Origin: Candidatus Lactobacillus pullistercoris
GTDB taxonomy: Bacteria > Bacillota > Bacilli > Lactobacillales > Lactobacillaceae
Assembly (NCBI GenBank): GCA_018883635.1
Contig: JAHLFT010000031.1
Location: 1 to 48,502 of the forward strand
DNA: 48,502 nt
Direction of reading: 5' to 3'
The position numbers and the translations under genes are program-made. The notes under the pieces are model-generated. The model did no database searches. It saw nothing but the letters and a program-made list of their open reading frames with translations, and was not told the origin of the DNA. Of the stretch, positions 1,821 through 5,606 are shown piece by piece; position 1 is the first letter of the stretch; every line of letters starts with the position of its first letter.

Positions 1821-2465
1821 TTAATCTTGATTAGAAAACTGCTTGCCCCACTTCCAAGGATCTTCATGCCAGGTCTTCAGTAGATCATATTGAGATTCAG
1901 AAACGTGGTTATTTGCCTTTTCTTGTTTTAATAATTCAGGATAGGAGATAAGTGGTTCAAAACGGATATTTGCTTGTTCAAAATTATTTTTGGCATCGGG
2001 TAAGTAATAGGTAAAGATCGAACTTACTCCTAAAACTTGGCCGCCATCTTTTTGCGTCGCTTTAACTGCATTTAAAACTGAACCACCAGTAGTAATCAAA
2101 TCATCAATTAAAACGATTTTATCATTCTTCGTAAAGCGGCCTTCAATTTGACGACCCTTGCCGTGATCTTTGGGCTTAGGGCGAACGTAAATCATGGGCA
2201 AATTCATCTCTGCCGCAATCCAAGCAGCATGTGGAATTCCCGCAGTTGCTACACCGCCAATAATATTAACGTCTGGATATTTTTCTTTAATTAAAGTAGC
2301 CATATCTTTGGCAATCATTGACCGCAAATTTGGATAAGAAATGGTTAGGCGAAAATCAGTGTAAATCGGTGAAAGCATCCCACTTGCATAGGTAAAAGGC
2401 TTATCGGGTGAGATTGAGACAATCTTTTTTTCGATTAAATTTTCAATAATCTTAGTCTTGTACAT
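1821..2465 (-). CDS. pyrE: Orotate phosphoribosyltransferase
   Basis: PRPP motif IVLIDDLITTGGS; adjacent to pyrF. Confidence 0.95.
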   Translation of the reverse strand: MYKTKIIENLIEKKIVSISPDKPFTYASGMLSPIYTDFRLTISYPNLRSMIAKDMATLIKEKYPDVNIIGGVATAGIPHAAWIAAEMNLPMIYVRPKPKDHGKGRQIEGRFTKNDKIVLIDDLITTGGSVLNAVKATQKDGGQVLGVSSIFTYYLPDAKNNFEQANIRFEPLISYPELLKQEKANNHVSESQYDLLKTWHEDPWKWGKQFSNQD

Positions 2466-3174
2466 TTTGATTAAACTCCTCCATAATCTCTTGATAACTT
2501 GCAGCTGGATCGCTTGCTAACGTAATTGGGCGGCCAACCACTAACGCACTAGAACCCCATTTTCCTGCTTGCCCTGGTGTTGCCGTGCGGGCTTGATCAT
2601 CATGACTATTAGCAGCTGGTCTGATGCCAGGTGTTACGTATAAAAAGTCCGTACCGACATTTCTCCTTAAATCTTCAACTTCGCGTGCAGAACAGATAAC
2701 ACCGTCGGCACCGGCTTTTTTGGCCATTTTTGCTAAAGAAGTAACTTCTTCTTGCATTGGTAATTTACAATTTTGTTCATTCGCTAAAACCTCATCAGAA
2801 ATCGAGGTTAATTCAGTGACAGCTAGTAATTTAGGGACGCTTTTACCACTCGGCGTACCCTCAATTAAGCCTTGCTTTGCTGCATGAATCATTTGGCTGC
2901 CACCTAAAGCATGAACAGTAGTATAAGTAATGCCTAATTTTGCGAGTTGCTTCATACCGCTGTAGACAGTATTAGGAATGTCATGAAGTTTAAGATCTAA
3001 AAAGATTTTGTATCCTTTAGCAGCTAAGTCAGTCACTATTTTTTCACCTTGATTGAAAAATAGTTCCATGCCAATCTTAATATTTACATCCTGGCTTTTA
3101 CCTAGTATTTCTAATAATTCGTCTAATTGAGTGCGATTATCAACATCTAATGCCACAATTACAGGTTTATTCAT
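2452..3174 (-). CDS. pyrF: Orotidine 5'-phosphate decarboxylase
   Basis: MNKPVIVALDVD...; FLDLKLHDIPNTV motif; start placed at MNKP, downstream of the ORF-track start. Confidence 0.95.
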   Translation of the reverse strand: MNKPVIVALDVDNRTQLDELLEILGKSQDVNIKIGMELFFNQGEKIVTDLAAKGYKIFLDLKLHDIPNTVYSGMKQLAKLGITYTTVHALGGSQMIHAAKQGLIEGTPSGKSVPKLLAVTELTSISDEVLANEQNCKLPMQEEVTSLAKMAKKAGADGVICSAREVEDLRRNVGTDFLYVTPGIRPAANSHDDQARTATPGQAGKWGSSALVVGRPITLASDPAASYQEIMEEFNQNVQD

Positions 3175-3187
3175 TTTTCCTCCTGCA

Positions 3188-3300
3188 AACAAAAAAGTCT
3201 ATTTTGGTGCAGAGAGATTGCAACAAAATAGACTTATCCTAAGATAAATTTATGCCTTTTAAAAACTTGCGGTCTCTCTGTACCGTTTAAAGTTTTTATA
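3188..3300 (-). promoter_or_regulatory. PyrR-type transcription attenuator upstream of pyrF-pyrE
   Basis: On the minus strand: hairpin ACGGU-ACAGAGAG-ACCG, then terminator AAGUCUAUUUUG...CAAAAUAGACUU-UUUU whose loop UCUCUCUGCACC can pair with GGUACAGAGAGA (antiterminator). Confidence 0.85.
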
Positions 3301-3415
3301 TTTAATTCTCACAAAGAATAGCATCATCATTTCCAAAAAGCAGATTTATTTTTAAATAAAATTTTTATTGCAAAATCTAGAAAAGGGTGTAATATGTGTT
3401 CCTGAAAAAATAATT

Positions 3416-3433
3416 GAATGACAGAGAGCATTC
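3416..3433 (+). promoter_or_regulatory. Putative PyrR-binding hairpin just upstream of the MFS gene ribosome-binding site
   Basis: GAATG-ACAGAGAG-CATTC; same ACAGAGAG loop octamer as the pyrF leader; RBS at 3439-3443, ATG at 3452. Confidence 0.6.
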
Positions 3434-3451
3434 GTTTTGGAGGAATTAAAT

Positions 3452-4705
3452 ATGGACAATACTATTGGGCACAGTCGTGGACTATCTAAAAACCAGAAGT
3501 GGGTTATTGCATCTACTTCATCTGGATTTGCATTAGAGAACATGGATGTGCTTTTTTTATCGTTTGCAATGAGTTCAATGATTGCGCAGCTGCACTTAAG
3601 TGGAGGTGCTGCTGGATTAATCGGCTCAATCACCAACTTAGGGATGTTATTCGGAGGAATAGTTTTCGGCTTTCTTGGTGATAAGATTGGCCGAGTAAAA
3701 ATATTCAGCCACACAATCATCATTTTTGCAGTCGCAACCGCGTTAATGGCTTTTGCAAACAATATTTATCTAATTTATGCCCTCCGTTTTCTTGCCGGTA
3801 TCGGAGCTGGTGGGGAATATGGAGTCGGTATTGCGCTAATCGCAGAAAATTTTGATCATCATCAAATCGGAAAGATGACATCGATTGCCGCTATTGGTGG
3901 TCAAATCGGGGCAATTATTGCAGCTTTAGTTGCTGCTTGGATTATTCCGGCTGCTGGTTGGCATACACTCTTTTTAGTAGGAATTATTCCGGTAATTTTA
4001 ATCATCTTCATTCGTCGTCACGTTCAAGAGAGTGAACAGTTCTTGGAAGTTAAAGCTGAAGAAAAAGGTTCGCTACTCCGTGATGTTGTTAAGAAGATGT
4101 TCTCAACACCACGCTTAGCTTTGCAAACATTGGGTTTGATGGTGATGATGACTGTACAAATTGCTGGCTACTTCGGCCTAATGAACTGGTTACCAACAAT
4201 TGTACAAAAACAATTAAACTTGAATGTTTCTGGATCAAGCTTATGGATGATTTCGACGATTATCGGAATGAGCATCGGAATGATGACCTTTGGTTCAATC
4301 TTTGATAAATTTGGACCACGCAGAGCTTTCGCAATATTCTTAATCGGTTCAGCTGTGATGGTTTACACTTTAAGCTTAGCTAAAAATATGGAAACCTTGC
4401 TGCTTATTGGTGCAGTGGTTGGCTTCTTCTCAAACGGTATGTTTGGTGGCTACGGTGCAGTTATCAGCCGTCTTTACCCAACTGAAGTAAGATCTTCAGC
4501 TAATAACATTATCGTTAATGTGGGACGTGCAATCGGTGGCTTCTCATCAGTTGTCATCGGAATCTTAATGGATCACTACACTTTGGCAGTTGTAATGGGC
4601 TTCTTATCTGCACTCTACATCATCAGCTTTGCAGTCATGATCAGCTTGCCAGGTCTTCGTGAATTAACAAGAAAGCGTGGCTTAAATGACGGAAGTCGTA
4701 GTTAA
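3452..4705 (+). CDS. MFS transporter (aromatic acid/sialate-type); candidate pyrimidine-precursor transporter
   Basis: 12-TM MFS protein with GFLGDKIGR motif; overlaps pyrD by about 20 bp. Confidence 0.85.
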
Positions 4706-5606
4706 TTTACCAGGATTGAAGTTAAAAAATCCATTGATGCCAGCTAGTGGAACTTTTGGCTTTGGTGATACGCCAGCAGCACAGAAGTTTGATTTAAATC
4801 AAATGGGTGCTTTAGTGCTTAAAACAACCACTAGAAAAGCAAAAATAGGCAATCCGCAACCTCAAATAAAAGTTTTGGATAACGGCGTTTTGAATTCAGT
4901 TGGTTTAACCAACCCAGGTGTTGATCAGGTGGTTGAGGTTAAATTAGCTGAATTAAGAAAAAAGTATCCGGATTTACCGATTATTGCGAGTGTTGGTGGC
5001 GAAACGATTGATGACTATCTCTATGTAGCTGAGAAGCTTGCCAGCAGTCAAATGGTTAATGCCTTGGAAATAAACGTTTCCTGTCCTAATGTTAAGGCAG
5101 GCGGGATGCAATTCGGCATTGATCCCAAGATCGTCGAAGATTTAACTGCAAAAATTAAGCAGATAGTAAATATCCCAATTTATGTAAAGTTAACGCCGAA
5201 CGTTACAGACGTTGTAATGATAGCCAAAGCAGCAGAAGCTGGTGGGGCAGATGGCTTGTCATTAATTAATACTCTTTTAGGACTAGATATTGATGTCCGA
5301 GCCAGAAAAGCTGTTTTAGGCAATGGGATGGGCGGCTTATCCGGTAATTGCATTCGTCCTGTAGCGTTACGGATGGTCTATCAAATTCGGCAGGAAACAA
5401 ATTTGCCGATTATTGGGATGGGCGGTATCAGATCAGTTACAGATGTTGTGAAGTTCTTTTTAGCTGGTGCAAATGCAGTAGCGATTGGTTCAGCACATTT
5501 TAGGGATGAATTAATTATTCCACATCTTGCTGAAGAATTGCCGCATTATCTTGATAAATTAGGTGTCAGTGACATTAATGACTTAGTGGGACAAGTGGAT
5601 TTATAG
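4686..5606 (+). CDS. pyrD: Dihydroorotate dehydrogenase, class 1 (1B-like)
   Basis: [33 protein letters not shown] motifs. Confidence 0.93.

Follow-up and report, generated by a model that had tools for sequence, protein, structure and literature searches.

The gene of an MFS transporter and pyrD form an operon in Candidatus Lactobacillus pullistercoris, and the short leader in front of them raises the question of how the regulator PyrR might act at a site where no attenuator is found. PyrR of Firmicutes is a textbook case of transcription attenuation, and to our knowledge terminator-less, translational control by this protein has been reported only in mycobacteria. In Mycobacterium smegmatis, PyrR is said to repress translation of the pyr operon by means of an RNA loop situated at the ribosome-binding site, without a terminator. 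PMC13328217 cites Fields & Switzer 2007 (PMID 17601781) on PyrR-dependent translational repression in this species.

The window, that is, the whole stretch of DNA analysed, covers 48,502 nucleotides of contig JAHLFT010000031.1. The MFS gene (3452-4705, + strand) belongs to a TIGR00895-like aromatic acid/H+ symport family, with a score below the model cutoff, and its end is overlapped by the second gene of the operon, pyrD (dihydroorotate dehydrogenase, 4686-5606, + strand, NF005574 equivalog). The minus strand carries pyrF (2455-3174, NF001273 equivalog) and pyrE (1821-2465, TIGR00336). Judging from the sequence comparisons described below, the MFS-pyrD leader is very probably a PyrR operator, at which PyrR-UMP would repress both genes at translation initiation; the original prediction, in which PyrR was proposed to control MFS-pyrD at the level of translation, is thus supported.

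The starting point of that prediction was a hairpin, GAATG-ACAGAGAG-CATTC, which is present exactly as claimed at 3416-3433 of the + strand: GAATG (3416-3420), ACAGAGAG (3421-3428) and CATTC (3429-3433) are followed by GTTTT (3434-3438), the Shine-Dalgarno (SD) sequence GGAGG (3439-3443) and the ATG at 3452. The hairpin does lie just upstream of GGAGG, at a counted distance of 5 nt instead of the claimed 6 nt, and its end is 18 nt from the ATG. It is, however, only the upper part of a larger predicted PyrR-type RNA binding element (3407-3438, + strand), delimited by covariation in 69 distinct orthologous elements and contained in a covariance model (CM) match at 3404-3443. Beneath the upper stem (3416-3420 with 3429-3433), a 5' internal loop UAAUU (3411-3415) is followed by a lower stem AAAA/UUUU (3407-3410 with 3435-3438) that had been overlooked, and the 3' strand of this lower stem directly adjoins the SD. 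The hexaloop CAGAGA (3422-3427), within the loop ACAGAGAG, fits the consensus CNGNGA. As had been claimed, no terminator separates the hairpin from the start codon: neither a terminator nor an antiterminator is possible there, because SD and ATG are only 8 nt apart. A strict scan of 3150-3600 returned no terminator-like site, although the same scan also overlooks the pyrF terminator.

The loop octamer had been put forward as a link to the pyrF leader. It is indeed repeated there (minus strand, 3274-3281), at about 140 nt rather than 150 bp, but identity of the octamer proves little by itself, since ACAGAGAG is not enriched in the genome (10 occurrences versus 15 for a reversed control, not significant). 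The combination of a CNGNGA hairpin of at least 5 pairs with an SD and a start codon is more informative, being observed once against 0.005 expected per shuffled window (200 dinucleotide shuffles). Moreover, the site scores 49.4 bits with covariance model R1, built from 69 sequences including that of the window, and is the sole significant match in its own genome; a second match at C65:10559-10597 (23.8 bits, E 0.6) was taken as chance. Conservation, rather than octamer identity, is the real evidence for the element.

Conservation of the hairpin in related leaders had been named as a check on the original prediction, and its outcome is clear: MFS orthologs keep the element, with compensatory changes and a near-fixed distance to the SD. 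Such orthologs were found in 220 of 401 sampled Lactobacillaceae genomes, distributed over 32 of 40 genera. The element precedes 95 of the 98 MFS loci examined, a set located partly by the CNGNGA motif and including one locus (L116) judged by eye; the loci without it are L047 (a 49%-identical paralog), L104 (G069) and L117 (G086). It also precedes all 80 MFS loci of named genomes, which were fetched by protein alone and overlap the former set, many species being common to both. These genomes represent 12 genera: Lactobacillus, Lentilactobacillus, Levilactobacillus, Secundilactobacillus, Limosilactobacillus, Ligilactobacillus, Bombilactobacillus, Lacticaseibacillus, Fructilactobacillus, Lapidilactobacillus, Liquorilactobacillus and Periweissella. 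Of the 94 loci in which the spacing between hexaloop and SD was measured, 64 have 11 nt and 25 have 10 nt, the remaining 5 having 9 or 13 nt.

In the 69 distinct sequences, all six pairs of the upper stem show two-sided compensatory changes, and pairing holds in 93% of the cells. Covariation scores 0.384, compared with 0.141 after shuffling and no more than 0.093 when the partners are slid; the shuffle controls leave relatedness in, and it is the slide control, together with the number of pair types, that argues against relatedness as the explanation. The pair closing the hexaloop, for instance, is found as U-G, C-G, U-A, G-U, A-U and G-C, with A-G predominating within the genus Lactobacillus. 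The hexaloop itself remains constant as CNGNGA, its C, G, G and A being invariant in the 69 orthologs, and a UAA-containing 5' internal loop is present throughout. The lower stem is paired in 78% of cells when read in one register, the genus Lactobacillus being shifted by one column. It varies from AAAA/UUUU in the window and GAAA/UUUC in Lactobacillus sp. ESL0679 and ESL0701 to CAAAA/UUUUG or CAAA/UUUG in other genera, and in these last types, present in many relatives, the first G of the SD pairs with the C of the lower stem.

Searches with the covariance model gave matches in 215 of the 401 family genomes (31 of 40 genera), and among 15 further matches fetched, 13 precede an MFS gene and 2 precede pyrD. 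In 301 genomes of the wider class, a single match was obtained outside Lactobacillaceae, also preceding an MFS relative. The element thus looks essentially like a Lactobacillaceae feature, although the filters of this search were strict.

A second target bears out this pattern. Within the genus Lactobacillus, pyrD seldom lies behind the MFS gene, and the 28 standalone pyrD loci have an element of their own at the SD, clear in 23, degenerate in 4 (by eye) and lost in 1. The two pyrD genes located behind an MFS gene, in the window and in G054, have none of their own. The operator thus tracks the transporter family and pyrD rather than a location. It was also observed that pyrR comes about 150-290 nt after pyrD in all 28 standalone loci (L208-L236), and that most of the pyrD-pyrR gaps contain, by eye, a PyrR-type hairpin and a terminator, less clearly so in L208. 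In these relatives pyrR has a leader separate from the pyrD element, with a binding-loop consensus common to the MFS element; in many species the two lie within about 1.3 kb, which offers a natural comparison of the two modes.

Covariation points to a conserved RNA, but does not tell which protein reads it. The candidate is indicated by the likeness to the Bacillus-type PyrR element (RF00515), with which the MFS element has in common the CNGNGA hexaloop, the 5' UAA internal loop, the two-part stem and PyrR as proposed regulator, while differing in the lack of any antiterminator or terminator and in an A/U lower stem that abuts the SD. RF00515 gives no match at the MFS site of the window, and none at gathering score in 20 related loci. 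The window genome has a single PyrR (L001:1495-2025), adjoining uraA and matching solved PyrRs at E 1e-60, together with two attenuator-type leaders (pyrR-uraA and pyrFE) and one terminator-less site (MFS-pyrD). The pyrR leader is a canonical RF00515 element of 61.6 bits: it is a full attenuator, unlike the MFS site, with an identical binding-loop consensus. The pyrFE leader (3188-3297, minus strand) combines a PyrR-type anti-antiterminator, to which the octamer at 3274-3281 belongs, with a terminator of -17.4 kcal/mol; it matches RF00515 over its full length at 35.5 bits (E 0.003), under the gathering score of 54. Furthermore, in 61 genomes of the genus, PyrR is present in 27 of 27 MFS-positive and 44 of 44 pyrD-positive genomes, and the 10 PyrR-less genomes have neither gene, a co-occurrence which is partly due to joint pathway loss; some of these 10 genomes are, moreover, incomplete.

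The PyrR of the window genome falls within the uraA-linked clade; Met stands at the position of Thr18 and Tyr at that of His22, two positions that are important for RNA binding by the B. subtilis protein. The Tyr is common to all Lactobacillus PyrRs seen; the pyrD-linked PyrRs of the genus retain Thr18. These substitutions are a caveat for the RNA-binding strength expected of the window protein, and, along with the missing matches to pyrB and pyrC, they are what could be cited for a vestigial site, the RNA-contacting residues having changed after the other PyrR paralog, pyrB and pyrC were lost. We consider this quite improbable, as the window retains an intact stem and loop with the usual spacing, the pyrFE and pyrR-uraA attenuators are likewise intact, and G012 and G054 keep the element with the single PyrR found there at 76-78% identity to that of the window. 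A candidate promoter, TTGCAA (3368-3373), 16 nt and TAATAT (3390-3395), can be read from the + strand; it matches the consensus at only 8 of 12 positions and is absent from a strict promoter scan, and orthologs have TTG(C/T)AA...TAGAAT or TAAAAT in the equivalent position. The transcript would be expected to start at about 3402-3405, so that the MFS mRNA would carry the element almost at its very 5' end. With the start set at 3402, the predicted fold leaves the SD 64-85% open without protein and the lower stem by itself weak (pairing probability about 0.25), in keeping with a switch that depends on protein. With a start at 3396, however, the predicted fold pairs the SD at -11.5 kcal/mol, UUCCU (3399-3403) with AGGAA (3441-3445), and the leader might then be a self-folding, SD-sequestering hairpin working without protein, as a thermosensor or small-molecule riboswitch. 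This is scarcely credible, given that the UUCCU strand lacks conservation within the genus, is absent elsewhere, lies mostly upstream of the expected start and is probably untranscribed; the parts that are conserved, the CNGNGA loop and the UAA internal loop, are PyrR features.

An effect of PyrR mainly on the mRNA, with translation secondary, would have more in its favour, and is still unlikely. A protein-bound 5'-terminal hairpin could alter decay or block early elongation: in the genus Lactobacillus the element is near the predicted 5' end and could there affect RNase J or a pausing polymerase, and untranslated mRNA usually decays faster anyway. Against this stand the near-constant spacing to the SD, the lack of a terminator, the shortness of the U run, and the situation in other genera, where the element is apparently (by eye) well downstream of the likely promoter.

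Repression of translation by PyrR, the preferred reading, would operate as follows. When UMP/UTP are plentiful, PyrR would bind the hexaloop CNGNGA, the UAA internal loop and both stems, and hold the lower stem closed; because this stem ends directly at GGAGG, the PyrR-RNA complex would cover the SD and keep the 30S subunit off, so that MFS and the overlapping pyrD would be repressed together. When UMP is low, PyrR would leave and the weak A/U lower stem would open, and the transporter and dihydroorotate dehydrogenase would then be made, feeding pyrE and pyrF. The same PyrR would also govern pyrFE and pyrR-uraA by classic attenuation, and the anatomy of the elements fits this dual mode, with attenuation for pyrFE and occlusion of the ribosome-binding site for MFS-pyrD.

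The physiology of the window genome is consistent with such a circuit. It retains pyrD, pyrE, pyrF and pyrR-uraA; in this assembly, which is 96.6% complete, pyrB has no match and pyrC no credible one (only a 19.6-bit partial match), and carB-like matches are below cutoff. Both pyrB and pyrC are likely truly absent, and a pathway truncated in this way would require dihydroorotate or orotate from outside. The probable substrate of the MFS protein is dihydroorotate, or alternatively orotate, as the genetic context suggests: in 40 of the 80 named loci, pyrFE, pyrD or pyrR-uraA adjoins the MFS gene. Searched against plasmids and the PDB, the MFS protein matched no characterised pyrimidine transporter.

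The closest known system would be the pyr operon of Mycobacterium smegmatis, which has likewise a PyrR-type loop at the ribosome-binding site, no terminator and repression of translation initiation (predicted in the present case); as in that type of operator, the element abuts or overlaps the SD of the MFS gene. The differences are the phylum, the target, which there is the pyr operon itself and here a transporter-pyrD operon with one short leader, and the apparent use of attenuation at two other leaders of the window genome. In literature searches that covered mainly open-access papers, and could thus have passed over an earlier mention, control of translation by PyrR was not found described for lactobacilli. 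A 2013 survey of RNA regulons covered described Rfam families, PyrR among them as RF00515 (PMC3766115), and the present set adds elements overlooked by Rfam in every locus checked.

With less confidence than for the window itself, we lean towards a Lactobacillaceae-wide class of terminator-less PyrR operators dedicated to the import and oxidation of pyrimidine precursors, through an MFS dihydroorotate/orotate importer and pyrD, with one PyrR exerting attenuation in parallel with translational repression, and with the first G of the SD included, in many genera, in the lower stem that PyrR would close. If this is true, one regulator would exert both modes in one cell, the choice being set by the position of the binding loop; a transporter widespread among lactic acid bacteria would gain a probable substrate class, dihydroorotate or orotate; and it would be explained how strains without pyrB and pyrC could live on an imported precursor.

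Two minor observations were made on neighbouring RNA elements. TPP riboswitches occur near the MFS gene in two genomes (L147:4282-4372 and L133:5158-5248). Within the attenuator of pyrFE, the strand GGUACAGAGAGA of the PyrR loop is complementary to UCUCUCUGCACC, a part of the terminator hairpin, with a duplex of about -20 kcal/mol, and both L. hominis (L121) and an uncultured Lactobacillus (L120) have a near-identical complementarity; it may be the PyrR binding loop itself that directly forms the pyrFE antiterminator.
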